This document shows positions 22,258 through 38,361 of a stretch of DNA of 64,000 nucleotides, piece by piece. Origin of the DNA: Singulisphaera acidiphila DSM 18658 (GTDB lineage: Bacteria > Planctomycetota > Planctomycetia > Isosphaerales > Isosphaeraceae); assembly GCF_000242455.2 (NCBI RefSeq), contig NC_019892.1, forward strand, positions 7,698,744 through 7,762,743. Direction: 5' to 3'. Both the position numbers and the translations under genes were made by a program. Under the pieces are notes generated by a model. It was not told the DNA's origin, ran no database searches, and was given only the letters and a program-made list of their open reading frames with translations. Numbering within the stretch: the stretch's first letter is position 1; each line of letters starts with the position of its first letter.

Positions 22258-24207
22258 TCAGCCGAGGACCGGGTTGAGACCCATGTTCTTCCTCATCTCG
22301 GCGCGTTGTTTTTCGTAGTTCATGAGCATCTTGCGGTCGCGAAAGTGCTGCCGTTCTTTCCTCGCCTGGGCGCTGAGTACAAGCCGGCGCATCGAGCCGC
22401 TGGTCAATTCGCCTCGGTCCTTGTAGCGTCGGCGAATCCGGGCGGCCGGTTTTTCGCCGTAGGCATCGATGATCTCGTCTTCGAGCGAGACGAAGAACTG
22501 GCAGTGCCCGGGATCGCCCTGGCGAGCGCAACGACCGGCGAGCTGGCGATCGATCCGCCGCGACTCGTGCCGCTCAGTCCCGATCACATGGAGCCCGCCG
22601 CTCTTGGAAATCTCTTCGGTCAGCTTGATGTCGGTTCCTCGGCCGGCCATGTTGGTGGCCACCGTCACGCGACCCGGCTGCCCGGCCTGAGACACGATCT
22701 GAGCTTCAATCTCGTGGTTCTTGGCGTTCAAGATTTGATGTTCGATCTTGGCGGCATTCAAGAGCGCACTGAGTTTCTCCGACTTCTCGATTGAGCGGGT
22801 ACCGATCAGCACAGGCACTTGCAGCTTGTGCCACTCGACGATCTGATCGGCCACTGCCTGGAACTTTTCCGACTCGTTGGAAAAGATCCGGTCGTCGACC
22901 CAGACCCGGCGACAGCGGCGGTTGGTGGGAACCTTGAACACCTTGACCTTATAGATCCGGCGCAGCTCCGCCGCATCGCTCGACGCCGTCCCGGTCATCC
23001 CGGCGAGCTTCTTGTACTTCAAGAAGAAGTCTTGCACGGTCACCCGCGCGGCGGTGATCGTCTCGAGAGTCACTTCGAGCTTTTCTTTGGCCTGGATCGC
23101 CTGGTGAAGACCGTCCTGCCACTGGCGGCCGGGCATCATACGGCCGGTGAACTCATCGACGATGACGATCTCGTCGCTGGAGACCACGTAATCGCGGTCC
23201 CTCAGGTAGGCGATCTGAGCGCGAAGGGCCCGCTCGACATACTCGTAGAGTCCATCCACCGTCAGGGTGACGAACGACGAGTGGCCGGCGACGGCCTGCA
23301 CCTTGCGGCGTCCGGATGCGTTCAGTTCGGCCTTGCGCTCGGCCGGGTCGTACTTGAAGTCCTTGGTTCGGATGAGCGTCGCGGCGAGCTCGTCGGCCCC
23401 GAAGTAAGCGGCGGCTTCCTCCTGAGTCGGCTGGTTGTTCGCTCCGATAATCAACGGGGTTCGGGCTTCGTCAATCAGAATGCTATCGGCTTCGTCCACG
23501 ACCGCGAAGTGGTGGGTGCGCTGGACGGGGGTCTCTGATTCGGCGTGAGTGCCCGTGCCGAGAAAAGCTTGCTCGAACGACTTGCGATGGGTGTCCCCAA
23601 GTTGGAGCCGCTTGAGCTCATCGCGGAGGAAGTCGAAGCCGAACTCCTTGCTCGTCCCATAGGTGATGTCAGCGGCGTAGGCCGAGCGACGGACCGGATC
23701 GGGTTGACCGGTCTGGATACAGCCGACGCTCATCCCGAGCAAGTTGTAGATCGGCGTCATCCACTCGGCGTCACGGGACGCGAGGTAGTCGTTCACCGTG
23801 ATGACGTGAACGCCCTTACCTTGTAAGGCATTCAAGTAGGTTGGAAGCGTGGCGACGAGAGTCTTGCCTTCTCCGGTCTCCATCTCGGCGATACAGCGGT
23901 TATGGATCGCCGCGCCGCCGACCATTTGCACGTCGTAGTGCCGCTGTTTGACGGTCCGCTTGGCCGCCTCGCGGACCAGGGCGAAGGCCTCGACGAGCAT
24001 GCCGTTGAGCGAGTCTCCCTGACGTGCCTTGAGCTTGAGCTGTCGGCTCCGCTCGGCAATCTGGGCATCGCTCTCCTTTTCCAGCATCGGCTCCATCGCG
24101 TTGATTTGCGCCGCGTAGACAGCGTAACGGCTGAGCCGCCCTTGATGGGTCGGTCCCGCGATCGTCCGCATCTGGTTCAACCACTTCGGGCCCAGTCGAC
24201 TCGCCAT
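22258..24207 (-). CDS. Short SecA-type translocase ATPase
   Basis: This 649-residue protein carries the SecA motor. Walker A is EMETGEGKT (about 109-117), Walker B is VVDEADSILIDEARTPLIIG, and a complete preprotein cross-linking domain follows (VDGLYEYVERALRAQIAYLRDRDYVVSSDEIVIVDEFTGRMMPGRQWQDGLHQAI). The second motor domain has MTGTASSDAAELRRIYKV, NMAGRGTDIKL and GTERHESRRIDRQLAGRCARQGDPG. It ends about 75 residues after that, so the helical wing/scaffold and zinc-binding tail of normal SecA (about 850-950 residues) are largely absent. The start at 24207 (MASRLGPKWLN) is fixed by AGGAGGAG about 9 bases upstream; the longer frame to 24315 has none. It is probably a paralogue, not the housekeeping SecA. 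Confidence 0.87.
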   Translation of the reverse strand: MASRLGPKWLNQMRTIAGPTHQGRLSRYAVYAAQINAMEPMLEKESDAQIAERSRQLKLKARQGDSLNGMLVEAFALVREAAKRTVKQRHYDVQMVGGAAIHNRCIAEMETGEGKTLVATLPTYLNALQGKGVHVITVNDYLASRDAEWMTPIYNLLGMSVGCIQTGQPDPVRRSAYAADITYGTSKEFGFDFLRDELKRLQLGDTHRKSFEQAFLGTGTHAESETPVQRTHHFAVVDEADSILIDEARTPLIIGANNQPTQEEAAAYFGADELAATLIRTKDFKYDPAERKAELNASGRRKVQAVAGHSSFVTLTVDGLYEYVERALRAQIAYLRDRDYVVSSDEIVIVDEFTGRMMPGRQWQDGLHQAIQAKEKLEVTLETITAARVTVQDFFLKYKKLAGMTGTASSDAAELRRIYKVKVFKVPTNRRCRRVWVDDRIFSNESEKFQAVADQIVEWHKLQVPVLIGTRSIEKSEKLSALLNAAKIEHQILNAKNHEIEAQIVSQAGQPGRVTVATNMAGRGTDIKLTEEISKSGGLHVIGTERHESRRIDRQLAGRCARQGDPGHCQFFVSLEDEIIDAYGEKPAARIRRRYKDRGELTSGSMRRLVLSAQARKERQHFRDRKMLMNYEKQRAEMRKNMGLNPVLG

Positions 24208-24375
24208 GACCCGTGCTCCTCCTCGGCTGACCTTCAAGATGTTCTTACCGAACGATCGGGCCAGTTCTGCCCGGCTCTCATCATGCGATTTGAGCGCTTG
24301 CCCCGCCGCGCGCAAGCTTCCCGATCAACGGGACAGCGATCCCGCCTATTCTCCCGGGACGAAACCATCCGGCTC

Positions 24376-25398
24376 TCATTTTTTGCTGGGGCGCATCGCG
24401 GTGAATTTGACTTGATCTCCTTTGAACTCGAAGTAGTAGTTCATCCGAGGGTCGTTCACAGACTGATCGTATTGCTTGATCCAGTTGGTGAGCACCTTCC
24501 ACTTCTCGGAGAAGGGGAGTTCACCGGGCCGTTCTTCGTTGGGGGGCATCCCCCAGAAGACCAGCAAATGGTCACCCGATTGTACCCAGAGTTTCGACTC
24601 CGATTCCGCGACGACGGCTTGAAAGATGTTCGGACTTCGCTTGATGAGGTCATCTCGCTGTACCGACCTGAGGAAGTTGGCCAGCTTGGCTCCCGCCAGC
24701 ACGCATTCGTCAACAACGGGTAATTTGTTCGGCCCGCTCTCCGTCTTCCACGTTTCGCCGACATTCCGTAGGAACGGGGGGAGTGAGGGAGATCCACCCC
24801 GTCGTTCGAGAAACAAAGTGGCCGCGGCATTCAGGTTGACATCATCCTGGTTGAGGATGACGGCCTCCTGGTCGATCAATTCCTTTCGGGAATGTTCCAC
24901 CGACACCAAGGCCACGGGCTCGCGGTAGTCCAGGTGCACGACCACGCGGTTGGGGTTCTGGCGCATAACAACCGCCTTGCGGACCCAGCCATCGCGTTGG
25001 AAGGCAAGTTTGAGCTTTTCCGTGTCGAGATCGAGCAGTGAGAACTGCTCCGGATCGCCGCTCTCCTTCCGGACTCGCTCCAAGAAATGCTTGGATCCCC
25101 CTTTGTACCAGCCGGGTGGAGGGGGATCGAGCACGATCTCGCTGAACGCGACCTGGTACTCCGCCTGCTTGTGGACGAAGGTCCGCAGCGACCGGAGCCC
25201 GTGGAGCCCGGCCAGGGAGAGGACATATAAGAACCCCGCCCCTGCGAGGATCGCCAGCACAATCCGAGGCCGCGAGAGCCGGCGCACACTCGGCGGTGTG
25301 ACGAAGCGCGCGAAGCGACGACCCCGAATGGGGTCGTTCTCCGACTCATGAGACGGGTCGTCGGCCGTCGCGATCCGAGGAGGTTCGCGGTGTTCCAT
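24376..25398 (-). CDS. FtsQ/DivIB-like cell-division protein
   Basis: This 340-residue protein starts at MEHREPPRIATAD, with AGGAGG 7 bases upstream. It has a cytoplasmic N-terminus of about 50 residues and one membrane helix (IVLAILAGAGFLYVLSLAGL). A POTRA-like region follows (FSLLDLDTEKLKLAFQRDGWVRKAVVMRQNPNRVVVHLDYREPVALVSVE), then a longer beta-rich domain. This topology and the position right after murB in a murC-murB-ftsQ order support an FtsQ-type role. Sequence similarity is weak, so the call rests on architecture and context. It lies 78 bp after murB, probably in the same operon. FtsZ is absent from most planctomycetes, which makes the retention notable. Confidence 0.65.
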   Translation of the reverse strand: MEHREPPRIATADDPSHESENDPIRGRRFARFVTPPSVRRLSRPRIVLAILAGAGFLYVLSLAGLHGLRSLRTFVHKQAEYQVAFSEIVLDPPPPGWYKGGSKHFLERVRKESGDPEQFSLLDLDTEKLKLAFQRDGWVRKAVVMRQNPNRVVVHLDYREPVALVSVEHSRKELIDQEAVILNQDDVNLNAAATLFLERRGGSPSLPPFLRNVGETWKTESGPNKLPVVDECVLAGAKLANFLRSVQRDDLIKRSPNIFQAVVAESESKLWVQSGDHLLVFWGMPPNEERPGELPFSEKWKVLTNWIKQYDQSVNDPRMNYYFEFKGDQVKFTAMRPSKK

Positions 25399-25476
25399 CA
25401 CCTGACCTCCTGCGGCGCGTTCGTCCAGAACTGGGGCCACGTCTGGGAACCAGACACGAGGGATTCCACGAACCGT

Positions 25477-26358
25477 TTACCAGACCTGAAGTTGAAGCTC
25501 GAGCTCGTAGCCAAACTGCTGCCAGACCCGCTGTCGGATCTGGTCGATCAGGTGGAGAACGTCGTCGGCCTTCGCCCCCGGCTGGGCCACAATGAAATTG
25601 GCGTGCCGGTCGGAAACCTCCGCCCCCCCCACGCGCGTCCCTTTCAGGCCGGCCTGATCGATCAGGGTGCCGGCCGGAACGTCCGGAGTCGGGTTCTTGA
25701 ACATACAGCCCGACGACTGGTGGCCGTACGGCTGGTTCTCCTTCTTGACGATCCAGATCCGCCGCATCCGTCGGACGACCGCCTCGGGGTCGGAGCCTTC
25801 AAGCTCGAACTCGGCCGAGAGAATCACGGGCTCATCGAGGTTCGAGGCGCGATCGGCGAAGCTCAGGTCATCGCGATCGCGGACCTGGATCTCGTCGGAG
25901 GCGTCGATCACCGTGGCCTTGCGGACAAGCTGGCCGATCGCGACCTGACGATCGCCCGCGTTCCCCCGGAGCGCTCCGCCGACGGTGCCGGGGATCCCGG
26001 TAAGAAACTCCAAGCCCGCCAGGCCGGCGCGGGCGGTCTGCGAGATCAGGGCCGTCAGAGGAACGGCCGCCCCCGCCTCGACGATGTTGTCGCGGACGGT
26101 CACGTCCGAGAAAGCCGGGCTCTCCAGGTGGATCACCATGGCCTGCACCCCCTCATCGCGGACCAGGACGTTCGATCCGCCGCTCAGGATCTTGACCGGG
26201 ACCTGCTCCTGGTGGCAGCGGCGGAGCAGGCCGACCAGCTCGTCGAGCGTCCTTGGCCGCGCCAGGAACGCCGCCGGACCGCCCAGCCGAAACCAGATAT
26301 GGGGAGCCAGCGGCTCATCGGCCTTGATGATCGCGCGAAAGTCGTCGAATGAATGCAT
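25477..26358 (-). CDS. murB: UDP-N-acetylenolpyruvoylglucosamine reductase
   Basis: MurB (293 residues) reduces UDP-GlcNAc-enolpyruvate to UDP-MurNAc with FAD and NADPH, in the cytoplasmic steps of peptidoglycan synthesis. The FAD domain shows VPVKILSGGSNVLVRDEG, LAGLEFLTGIPGTVGGALRGNAGD and a C-terminal HANFIVAQPGAKADDVLHLIDQIRQRV. The proton-donor position reads SSGCMFKNP, a Cys in place of the usual Ser as in a subset of MurB enzymes, and the final Glu is in GYELELQLQVW. The usual YR in the (F/Y)xYRxS motif is FADRAS, so the Tyr is changed while the Arg remains. Its start overlaps the end of the MurC-like gene by 44 bp, indicating co-transcription. Confidence 0.92.
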   Translation of the reverse strand: MHSFDDFRAIIKADEPLAPHIWFRLGGPAAFLARPRTLDELVGLLRRCHQEQVPVKILSGGSNVLVRDEGVQAMVIHLESPAFSDVTVRDNIVEAGAAVPLTALISQTARAGLAGLEFLTGIPGTVGGALRGNAGDRQVAIGQLVRKATVIDASDEIQVRDRDDLSFADRASNLDEPVILSAEFELEGSDPEAVVRRMRRIWIVKKENQPYGHQSSGCMFKNPTPDVPAGTLIDQAGLKGTRVGGAEVSDRHANFIVAQPGAKADDVLHLIDQIRQRVWQQFGYELELQLQVW

Positions 26359-27700
26359 CGGCTATCGTTCCCACATCGCCAGCCCCGAGCGTCACCAGCA
26401 CGTCACCGGGTTCCAGATTCCCGTCCAGCTCTCGGATCACATCGTCGAGACCGGCCGCCTCACAAGCGTTCACGCCGGACCCGACCAGGGCCTCCACGAG
26501 CGAATTCGCCCTCCGCCCCCCAACCTGACCACTTCCCTCAGTCACCAAAACATGGTCCGCCCCAGCGAACGCAGCCGGATAGCCGGCTTCCGCCCCAGCG
26601 GTCCCCGTCTCCTCGCCGGTACAGATCACGGCCCAGATCGGACGAGGTCCAAAAACCTGGCGAGCGATCGTCAGCGTCTCAGAGACCGAGTCGGGGTCAC
26701 AGCCCGCGTCATCTACCAGCGTAACACCTCGATAGCTTCCCCGTGACTCGAAATCACGAGAAAGCCCCGCGAACTCTTCCAACCCTTGTTTAATCTCCTG
26801 AATCGGCACGGAAAGCCGGTCGCAGGCGGCGACCGCCGCCAGGGCACCCAACACGTTTCGACGCCCGGGGACGCGCAAACGAACTTCAACCGCGAATTGC
26901 CCCTTGTGAAACGCACGGAACCGATAACGGCCCCGTTCCTCGCGCAGGTCGGCTCCCCACCAGTCACTCGGTCGATCGAGCGAAATCCGTTCCACCATCG
27001 GCACCAGGTCGCGCACCACCTCCGCAACCATCTGATTGTCTTCGAGGGCGAGGACATAGCCGTCCGCCGGAACCGAGTCCGCGAACTGGCGAATCGCCGC
27101 CTTTCGCTCTTCCGCAAGCCAAGGCCGGTCGTCTCCCACATCCAAGAGCAGGGCCAGACTCGGCGAGGCGGGACCGATCTCCCCCGCTCCTTCGATCGCT
27201 TCGGCCACAAAATGGGGGCCCGAGCCGACGCGGCCCCAACCACCCAGCTGAGGCACCTCCGACCCCAGTACAATCGTCGGGTCGAGCCCGGCCTGAGTCA
27301 GGATCCAACCGATCATCGCCGAGGCGGTCGACGCGGTCCGACGGCCGACCACCGCCAGGCTGATCGATTCTTGCATCATCTGGCCGAGCCACTGCCCGAC
27401 CGACGCTTGATCGATGCCGCGCCGGGTGGCGGCGAGCCGCGACGGATGATCGCGCCCGACCTCCGGGTGATAGACGAGGAACTGAGCCCCCCGCGACGAG
27501 TGGCCGGCATGGATCCGGGCACCAAGTCGCCTGAGCCGCTCAACAGCGAGGCGGCTCGACGGCTCAGACCCAGTCACCAGCATGCCTCGCTGCACGAGCA
27601 TTTGGGCCAGGCCTGACATCCCGCGTCCCGCAATCCCCACCAGATGCGCATGCGCAGGCGCGACTTCCGCGCGGGCTTCCCCACGTCGCAACCGATCCAT
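26315..27700 (-). CDS. MurC-like Mur-ligase homologue lacking catalytic motifs
   Basis: The 461-residue protein has the three-domain layout of UDP-MurNAc:L-Ala ligase. The nucleotide-sugar loop reads HLVGIAGRGMSGLAQML (about 19-35), the central domain includes AMIGWILTQAGLDPTIVLGSEV, and the C-terminal Rossmann domain includes RRNVLGALAAVAACDRLSVPIQEIKQGLEEFAGL. The ATP loop, GTHGK(T/S)T in working enzymes, is GRRTASTAS at 119-127, with no Gly-Lys. The DDYAHHPTE motif reads DDAGCDPDS (about 330-338), and the later FQPHxxSRT region is also not recognisable. The fold is probably kept but ligase activity is unlikely. The position before murB and the 44-bp overlap are those of murC. Start at MDRLRRGEA (27700); an earlier one at 27754 is possible. 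Confidence 0.85.
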   Translation of the reverse strand: MDRLRRGEARAEVAPAHAHLVGIAGRGMSGLAQMLVQRGMLVTGSEPSSRLAVERLRRLGARIHAGHSSRGAQFLVYHPEVGRDHPSRLAATRRGIDQASVGQWLGQMMQESISLAVVGRRTASTASAMIGWILTQAGLDPTIVLGSEVPQLGGWGRVGSGPHFVAEAIEGAGEIGPASPSLALLLDVGDDRPWLAEERKAAIRQFADSVPADGYVLALEDNQMVAEVVRDLVPMVERISLDRPSDWWGADLREERGRYRFRAFHKGQFAVEVRLRVPGRRNVLGALAAVAACDRLSVPIQEIKQGLEEFAGLSRDFESRGSYRGVTLVDDAGCDPDSVSETLTIARQVFGPRPIWAVICTGEETGTAGAEAGYPAAFAGADHVLVTEGSGQVGGRRANSLVEALVGSGVNACEAAGLDDVIRELDGNLEPGDVLVTLGAGDVGTIADAFIRRLSRDHQGR

Positions 27701-28084
27701 CGGCGAGCGCCCCCGGTCTATCCTGAGAGTCAACGAGCAGGCAACGGCCAACACGGGCCGTCACTCTTCCGCCCTCCAAACCCTACTATCGGTTCGACAG
27801 GCAGAACGCTCGCAATCTTTCCCGACGACCGGAACCACCCGTTCACCGGAATTATGTTAGCCAGCGCTCCAGGAGGCGTCAAGGAAACGAACCAACCCCC
27901 GCGTCCCTCGCATCTTGTTCTTCCGCAAGGGCCCCGATTATTCTGATAATGGATGGATTCACTTTTTTCTCGCCTCGCGGTCGGACCTCCTCGTTTAGCC
28001 TGAACAAGAGTTCCAGCAATTTCCGGTTCCCATCCTCTTGTGTGTCGGCTTCACAACCATTTATTAAACAAGAATGAGACGACG
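27701..28084. other. Divergent promoter region
   Basis: This 384-bp stretch separates the MurC-like gene (leftward) from the zinc-ribbon membrane protein gene (rightward). No gene is seen in it. GATAAT at 27945-27950 is a possible -10 element for the rightward gene, without a convincing -35. Confidence 0.35.
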
Positions 28085-35775: not shown

Positions 35776-38361
35776 TTACAAATTTATTTCCATCCACTGC
35801 TGAACATACTCAAGCGATCGCTCGATCGCCTCGACGCCGATAATAAGGAGGTCGCCCGGCTCCAGCTCGCGAAGCGCTTGCTCGATCGCAAGGTTCTCGT
35901 CTGCCACTTCGACCAGTTCCTTGATCCGAGGACGACCCCTCAGCCCTTGTTTGAGCAAAATATTGAGCTCGCCGTCCTGGCGATCCTGGTTCCCCTTGTC
36001 TTCATAGAGAATGACCCGGTCGAAGCCGTCACCGATGACCTCCCCCTGGCGGACGACGTCCAGGTCACGGCGGTTGCAGCCCGCGAACACGAGAACCCGG
36101 CGCGTGTGGGGCAACGACTCGGCCGTGTCGATCAACGCTTCGAGGGCCATCGCGTTGTGCGGGAAGTCGATGACGACCGTCGCCCCCTTGACCTCGAAGA
36201 GGTTGAACCGCGCGGGCATCTGGATCGGATCACCGGCGAACGACGCCAAGCCCGACCGGATCGACTCGCGGGACAGGCCGATGGACCAGGCCGCTCCGGC
36301 CGTCGCCAGCACGTTCTCGACCTGGAACCCGACGCGCCCCTGATGGGTGATCGGCACATCCGCCAGTAAAACGAGGGACTCCTCTTCCAGTCCCCTGGCC
36401 AGCACAATCGCACCGTCGCGAACGAAGACCGCACGTCCCCCCTCGTTGCGATGGCGGACGATCACCGGATGCTCGGCATCGCGAGCAAACCAGATCACTT
36501 CTCCAGGGCAATGGTCGGCCATCGCGGCAACAAGCGGGTCGTCGGCCTTGAGCACGGCCGCGCCCTCGGCGGCAACCACTTCGACGGTCGTCCGCTTGAC
36601 CCGCGCCAGTTCCTCGAGGGTGTCGATCCCGCGAAGCTCAAGATGGTCTCCCTCGCCCAGGTTCGTGACCACCGTGACGTGGGAGCGGTCGAACGCCAAC
36701 CCCTCGCGGAGGATCCCCCCCTGAGCCGTTTCGAGGACGGCCACTTCCACGAGCGGGTTGAGCAGCACGGTCCGAGCGCTCTGGGGACCACTGCAATCAC
36801 CGGTCTCGATGCGCCGGTCGGCAACGTAGATCCCGTCGGTCGTGCTCATGCCGACGACCCGCCCCGCCTCGGCGAAGAGGTGGGCGATCAGCCGGGTCGT
36901 GGTCGTCTTACCGCTGGTCCCGGTGACGGCGATGAGCGGGATCCGCCCGTCGTCCCCCTCGGGATAGAGCGAGGTCAAAATGGCTTCGCCGATGGGCTGA
37001 GGAGGATCGTGCCAAGGTCTGAGATGCTGCCTCAGCCAGGGACTTGCGTTAACTTCGAGGATGACGCCCCCCTGCTCTTCAAGGGGACGTCCGATATCCT
37101 CGGCCACGACGTCGAGGCCAGCGAGGTCGAGCCCAATGACCCGAGTCGCGTCGAGCACGCGGGCAGCGACCTCAGGGTGAACCTGGTCGGTCACATCGAC
37201 GTTGTTCCCACCGTCCCTGAGATGGGAGTTCCGCCTGATGAACACCCGTGCTCCAGGCGGGGGGATCGAGTCGAGCTGAAAGCCCTGATCGGCAAGAACC
37301 CCGAGGGCAATCGGGTCGAGCGGGAATTTTCTCAAAGGGGAAGACGCATCGTCACCGCGACGAGGGTCGCGGTTGACCTCCTCGACGAGTTCGGCAATGG
37401 AGTGAATTCCGTCGCCAATGACCTGAGCCGAGTCGCGTCGAGCAGCCGCAATGACTCGGTCGCCCGCCACGAGCATCCGATGGTGTGCGCCTGGAGCGAA
37501 CCGCTCGACCATAATGTTGGAGCTGACCTCGAGCGCGGCGGCGTAAGCGGCCGTGAGCTGCTCGCGTGTGTTCAGGTTCAGCGTGATCCCATCGCCATGA
37601 TCGGCGTCGCACGGCTTGATGACGACCGGAAGCCCGACTTCGAGCGCGGCGGCCCAGGCATCCTCGACGTCCGAGACGGGCCGACCTTGGGGGACCGGCA
37701 CACCGACCGCCCGGAGCATCTCCTTGGTGAGGTCCTTGTCGTTGGAGATCGACTCGGCGATCGCACTCGTCCGATCGGTGAACGCAATCTGGAACCGTCG
37801 CTGGCGGACGCCGTGGCCGAACTGGATCAGGCTATCCGTGTTGAGCCGGCGAAAAGGAATCCCTCGCGCCCTCGCCGCCGCCGCGATCGGCGCGGAATTG
37901 GGGCCGATCCTGACCTGTTGAGTGAGCGTGCGCAACCGTTCGAGCTCGGTTCGAAGATCAAACGGACGATCGTCAAGCGCACTGCCGACCAACGACAAGG
38001 CCAAGGCGAGCGCAGCACGCCCCACTTCCTCTTCTTGATACTGCACGGCCAGCCGGGCAACCCCATCCTCGGCCGGCGGTCGCCAGGCCAAGAAGGCGAC
38101 GTCCGAACCAGACCGCCGCTGAAGCTCCAAGATCAGGAGCGCCACCACCCCTTCCAGATCCCTCTCTTGCTTCAGCCGTTCGGTAACCTCATCAAGGCCG
38201 GAATCGGCCGAGGCGAACGATCGAATCAAACGATCCAAGAAACCAGGGATCTCGCCGGTCTGCCTCCCTTGGCGGCCTGCCAGATCCAACCACGCTTCGA
38301 GTACAGGAACACGGGTCCAGAGATTGGGTCCGCGCAAGGCCAGGACTTTCCGAACAATCAT
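35776..38361 (-). CDS. cphA: Cyanophycin synthetase
   Basis: CphA (861 residues) builds the multi-L-arginyl-poly-L-aspartate storage polymer from Asp and Arg with ATP. The family's N-terminal domain (RGPNLWTRVPVLEAWLDLAGR) is followed by an ATP-grasp domain (VIKPCDADHGDGITLNLNTREQL, MLVAGDRVIAAARRD, VAEDIGRPLEEQGGVILEVNASPWLRQHLRP). The C-terminal Mur-ligase-like domain has an intact loop VTGTSGKTTTTRLIAHLFAEAG and NLGEGDHLELRG. Length and motif order are those of active CphA. No cyanophycinase gene is visible in the window. Its intact GKTTT loop contrasts with the lost loop of the MurC-like protein 8 kb away. Confidence 0.93.
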   Translation of the reverse strand: MIVRKVLALRGPNLWTRVPVLEAWLDLAGRQGRQTGEIPGFLDRLIRSFASADSGLDEVTERLKQERDLEGVVALLILELQRRSGSDVAFLAWRPPAEDGVARLAVQYQEEEVGRAALALALSLVGSALDDRPFDLRTELERLRTLTQQVRIGPNSAPIAAAARARGIPFRRLNTDSLIQFGHGVRQRRFQIAFTDRTSAIAESISNDKDLTKEMLRAVGVPVPQGRPVSDVEDAWAAALEVGLPVVIKPCDADHGDGITLNLNTREQLTAAYAAALEVSSNIMVERFAPGAHHRMLVAGDRVIAAARRDSAQVIGDGIHSIAELVEEVNRDPRRGDDASSPLRKFPLDPIALGVLADQGFQLDSIPPPGARVFIRRNSHLRDGGNNVDVTDQVHPEVAARVLDATRVIGLDLAGLDVVAEDIGRPLEEQGGVILEVNASPWLRQHLRPWHDPPQPIGEAILTSLYPEGDDGRIPLIAVTGTSGKTTTTRLIAHLFAEAGRVVGMSTTDGIYVADRRIETGDCSGPQSARTVLLNPLVEVAVLETAQGGILREGLAFDRSHVTVVTNLGEGDHLELRGIDTLEELARVKRTTVEVVAAEGAAVLKADDPLVAAMADHCPGEVIWFARDAEHPVIVRHRNEGGRAVFVRDGAIVLARGLEEESLVLLADVPITHQGRVGFQVENVLATAGAAWSIGLSRESIRSGLASFAGDPIQMPARFNLFEVKGATVVIDFPHNAMALEALIDTAESLPHTRRVLVFAGCNRRDLDVVRQGEVIGDGFDRVILYEDKGNQDRQDGELNILLKQGLRGRPRIKELVEVADENLAIEQALRELEPGDLLIIGVEAIERSLEYVQQWMEINL

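Follow-up and report, generated by a model that had tools for sequence, protein, structure and literature searches.

The window, a stretch of 64,000 nt from Singulisphaera acidiphila DSM 18658, carries on its minus strand a MurC-like protein, hereafter MurC*, followed by murB, an FtsQ-type POTRA protein and a short SecA-like protein (Table 1). The MurC* reading frame runs from an ATG at 27700 to a stop at 26315, an extent that the initial annotation had given correctly. This ATG, which opens the protein with MDR, is common to its relatives; an alternative in-frame GTG lies at 27754. The previously reported overlap with murB amounts to 44 nt (26315–26358). Elsewhere in the window, at 35776–38361, lies a cyanophycin synthetase-like protein above the TIGR02068 cut-off, one of three in the genome.

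Table 1. Features of the MurC* locus and of related proteins elsewhere; plain numbers are window positions, and the last two entries carry their own genome or locus coordinates.
Feature	Position	Strand	Basis or remark
MurC-like pseudoenzyme (MurC*), 461 aa	26315..27700	minus	TIGR01082, AlphaFold model, 11 orthologues including its own
Former ATP P-loop GRRTASTAS, residues 119–127	27320..27346	minus	canonical sequence GTHGKTTT
Arg192 replacing the metal-site PDH His	27125..27127	minus	His in 39/39 canonical MurC, 0/11 MurC*
Newly constrained block 1, residues 246–279, central-domain beta meander	26864..26965	minus	strands in model
Newly constrained block 2, residues 301–330, with SRxFESRGSYRGVTLVDD	26711..26800	minus	site identity
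DDAGCDPDS, residues 330–338, replacing DDYAHHPTE	26687..26713	minus	alignment
CTGEETG, residues 360–366, replacing QPHRYSR	26603..26623	minus	alignment
Newly constrained block 3, residues 421–453, LDxxLEPGDVLxTLGAGDVGTIADAFIRRL	26342..26440	minus	site identity
murB, overlapping MurC* by 44 nt	25477..26358	minus	active-site motifs SSGCMFKNP and AEVSDRHA intact
FtsQ-type POTRA protein	24376..25440	minus	PF08478; kept after murB in relatives
Short SecA-like protein (685 aa), last gene of the conserved cluster	22258..24315	minus	after ftsQ in most Isosphaeraceae
MurE-like protein (MurE*) of Isosphaeraceae	G000:C1:4011609-4012988		motifs DH, DYAH and GGDRD lost
Divergent MurC of genome G260 (family f14)	L122:9103-10581	minus	before murB

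MurC* has the overall layout of MurC, as first described: it matches the TIGR01082 model end to end (18–450), scoring 217.6 bits where the cut-off is 335.1, and all three Mur-ligase domains, PF01225 and PF02875 above their cut-offs and PF08245 just below. Its alignment to MurC of known structure also runs end to end, at 22–28% identity. The AlphaFold model (mean pLDDT 77, pTM 0.75) adopts the MurC fold according to Foldseek, with a TM score of 0.77 to Haemophilus influenzae MurC (1p3d). The closest relative of its host is Singulisphaera sp. GP187 (88% identity).

Alignment with planctomycete MurC bears out the earlier reading of the motifs as GRRTASTAS and DDAGCDPDS with the later His motif gone. 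As reference we used 39 planctomycete MurC sequences with a P-loop, 64 of whose alignment columns reach 95% conservation or more, with numbering according to chain 1gqq_A and with residue roles as in established MurC structures. P-loop residues T126, H127, G128 and K129 are kept in 0, 0, 1 and 0 of 11 MurC* copies, and H198, N295, R326, H348, H349 and H376 in none, whereas the same catalytic residues are present in 38–39 of the canonical sequences. The claim that all catalytic motifs are lost thus holds for the P-loop, the metal-site His, DDYAHHP and QPHxxSR, but goes too far for Glu167, Arg315 and Asp331, which are still present. Across the copies, E173 is retained in 8/11 and R325 in 10/11 (1gqq_A numbering), and the structural residues G25, G125, A134, G165, G224, F320, D345, G458 and G460 in 10–11. 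New invariant residues have also appeared: Arg121 occupies the P-loop His position in all 11 copies (His in 39/39 canonical MurC), along with Q151, L152, G154 and R320. With enzyme homology and its catalytic residues replaced, MurC* is a pseudoenzyme that, judged from sequence, has presumably lost both productive ATP binding and L-alanine ligation. A canonical MurC from another genome (G231, locus L125) resembles it in three-domain fold, end-to-end alignment and position before murB, but retains the ATP, metal and His motifs, which MurC* lacks while conserving other regions; canonical MurC is the parent group of MurC* in the tree.

A protein search recovered MurC* orthologues in 11 of 45 Isosphaeraceae genomes, some of them incomplete. 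None of these copies has an internal stop (one runs off a contig end), all lie before murB, and together they form a single clade with 100% support within the planctomycete MurC tree. Canonical MurC exceeding the TIGR01082 cut-off was found in 0/45 genomes of the family, and class-wide 74 of 298 genomes exceed it; a second canonical murC in the S. acidiphila genome, proposed earlier as a check, was sought and none was found. One murC match, in genome G298, was not confirmed as a MurC homologue. A profile built from the 11 sequences detected no further, more diverged MurC* upstream of murB in the murB loci of 32 non-holder genomes, some of which end near murB. Because the holders are scattered from side to side of the family tree (MurB plus SecA-like proteins; deepest branches weak), we conclude that the dead form is ancestral to Isosphaeraceae and was lost about four times. 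We found no prior report of a MurC pseudoenzyme in the open-access literature.

The absence of a recognizable lipid II pathway from Isosphaeraceae provides the context that explains the catalytic loss. MurG and MurA reach their family cut-offs in none of the 45 genomes; the MurA matches seen in 40 genomes reach no more than 84 bits where 392.7 are required, and most likely represent AroA. A search for Mur-ligase proteins found no recognizable MurD or MurF in the S. acidiphila genome, where the members besides MurC* are a MurE-like protein, three cyanophycin-synthetase-like proteins and one protein of FolC size. A penicillin-binding protein (PBP) transpeptidase domain occurs in 2/45 genomes (G006 and G033) and is missing from the other 43; G006, where MurE is canonical and murB gave no match, may be contaminated. 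A 2025 survey likewise reported murA, murC, murD, murF, murG, murJ and ftsW to be lost in Isosphaerales (PMC12283558), and the wall of Isosphaera pallida was described as lacking muramic acid and diaminopimelate (PMC3072084). The loss of MurC catalysis accompanies the loss of the pathway, which the protein can outlive.

The initial annotation proposed that MurC* is under selection for a non-catalytic role, perhaps as a scaffold or regulator of MurB. Several lines of evidence support such selection, at a strength below that of the working enzyme.

First, between S. acidiphila and Singulisphaera sp. GP187, MurC* shows dN 0.064, dS 0.295 and dN/dS 0.22 (95% interval 0.16–0.32), an NG86 estimate with bootstrap and not a codon-model likelihood test. 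Other MurC* pairs give 0.18, 0.28 and 0.29, with every upper bound below 0.38; for comparison, canonical MurC pairs give 0.05–0.14, MurB 0.02 and FtsQ 0.23. Of the 152 base differences between the two Singulisphaera copies, 97 fall at third codon positions. Further, a neutral frame of this length would stay free of stops with a chance of about 4e-6 at dS 0.3 and about 1e-18 at dS 1.

Second, constraint has moved within the protein. Mean site identity is higher in MurC* than in canonical MurC at residues 246–279 (0.69 versus 0.37), 301–330 (0.76 versus 0.47) and 421–446 (0.78 versus 0.50), gains of 0.28 to 0.32, and lower in the former His-motif region, 331–366 (0.44 versus 0.66, a loss of 0.21), while averaged over the whole protein the two differ little (0.49 and 0.47). 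Because only residues from 447 onwards overlap murB, the overlap does not explain the first two blocks or residues 421–446. This shift is the strongest evidence against MurC* merely decaying. In dN/dS, in shifted constraint and in open frames, MurC* behaves as a protein maintained by selection after catalytic loss, which makes a new, non-enzymatic job probable.

The main challenge to a new job is that MurC* is a relic on its way out, a murC left over after peptidoglycan and drifting slowly under residual constraint from folding or from translational coupling to murB. Its repeated loss within the family and a dN/dS two to three times that of canonical MurC fit such a relic, and even canonical murC is non-essential in Planctopirus limnophila (PMC12283558). 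Against it stand three blocks more conserved than in the working enzyme, including residues 421–446 outside the murB overlap, new invariant residues such as Arg121 and R320, and stop-free frames in every copy, whose survival by neutral drift is very improbable; we regard this explanation as unlikely, if the most serious of the alternatives. The initial annotation had named normal MurC at the same locus in relatives, together with relaxed selection, as signs of a decaying gene. The outcome is mixed: other planctomycete families do have a normal MurC there and selection on MurC* is weaker, but the pattern is not that of a decaying gene.

A changed chemistry, in which MurC* retains binding of a nucleotide or sugar nucleotide and has another catalytic or sensing role, is less probable again. 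The N-terminal GxxGMSGLAQ and GS are kept in Singulisphaera and several other copies, and the active-site motifs of MurB are intact, so some sugar nucleotide may exist in these cells. The same domain, however, varies at positions that are strict in canonical MurC (S84 and D49 each kept in 2/11 copies, A86 in 0/11), several copies have an eroded glycine loop, no signature of another catalytic activity is apparent, and MurA is missing as a source of UDP-MurNAc.

That MurC* is a divergent but working MurC, and that the cell still makes UDP-MurNAc-L-Ala, is highly improbable. The full MurC layout would suit such an enzyme, and 2015 profile-based studies, as a citing passage in PMC5147048 presents them, credit all planctomycetes examined with peptidoglycan synthesis genes; but the P-loop Lys, the metal-site His and both His of DDYAHHP are absent from 11/11 copies, MurA, MurD, MurF and MurG are missing, and the wall composition of I. 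pallida speaks against it. A sequencing or assembly error, a frameshift or a recent local accident can be dismissed, because the same losses recur in 11 genomes with frames open throughout.

MurC* has parallels. In the same genomes, the MurE-like protein MurE* has shared its fate of lost motifs in a conserved protein: DH, DYAH and GGDRD are gone from every Isosphaeraceae copy read, with the suspect G006 as the one exception, the P-loop Lys is Arg in both Singulisphaera (and often kept in others), and dN/dS is 0.10. MurE* differs from MurC* in passing the cut-off of its own model, TIGR01085, and in being more widespread (19 Isosphaeraceae genomes above that cut-off). A second dead MurC, which probably arose independently, lies before murB in G260, a planctomycete of another family in which 4/7 genomes have canonical MurC and PBP. 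It has lost the P-loop, DDYAHHP and QPH motifs, its genome has no PBP, and it falls outside the MurC* clade, although the AU test does not firmly reject a joint clade (p 0.064). In family f2, two genomes (G114, L123:8889-10421; G129, L124:9103-10611) encode MurC with the main catalytic motifs intact and with long insertions.

A further precedent comes from plants. Angiosperm MurE has its primary function in plastid gene expression (PMC9434261) and, like MurC*, is a Mur ligase descendant retained for a role outside wall synthesis; the MurE-like PDB chain 8w9z_N is a weak match to MurC*. The plastid protein, however, descends from MurE and is tied to gene expression, a role of which MurC* shows no sign, and the gene neighbourhood of MurC* gives no reason to expect repurposing of the plastid MurE/PAP11 type, with incorporation into an RNA polymerase complex.

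The neighbours bear on what a partner could be. MurB is found in 44/45 Isosphaeraceae genomes, with its active-site motifs preserved in most copies, and murB–ftsQ followed by the short SecA-like gene extends across nearly all of the family. In relatives without MurC*, murB–ftsQ is intact, and in most of them secA is present too. MurC* is dispensable, as murB–ftsQ–secA persists without it in most of the 45 relatives, and MurB in those genomes is independent of it; the MurC*–murB gene order could reflect inheritance alone. MurB itself is kept under strong constraint in a family that lacks MurA and those later lipid II steps that were searched for.

Taken together, we favour as the likely explanation that MurC* is an old MurC-derived pseudoenzyme, ancestral to Isosphaeraceae, that has been repurposed as a binding protein and is held by purifying selection. 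Isosphaeraceae has lost the lipid II pathway, and by the time this family radiated its MurC had lost the ATP loop, metal site and catalytic His. The inactive protein stayed in the murC position ahead of murB as constraint moved to three non-catalytic blocks. The conservation shift suggests that it would bind through the beta meander of the central domain, the start of the C-terminal domain and a C-terminal strand and helix; gene order leads us to guess that the partner may be MurB or a MurB–FtsQ–SecA-like group. As about four lineages have lost MurC*, its role would be useful but dispensable. A bolder and doubtful extension is that MurC*, MurE*, MurB, FtsQ and the short SecA make up an envelope or division complex that is independent of peptidoglycan and evolved from old wall machinery in these FtsZ-less planctomycetes.

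These observations add a third state, beyond lost and present, for murC and murE in Isosphaeraceae, in which conserved, catalytically empty proteins persist. According to an earlier genome paper, murE is present in Isosphaeraceae (PMC5352709); automatic MurE calls in this family do not imply wall synthesis. MurC* offers a test case for roles of Mur ligases without catalysis, and these proteins are concrete candidates for organizing the envelope and division in planctomycetes that have neither FtsZ nor the lipid II pathway.
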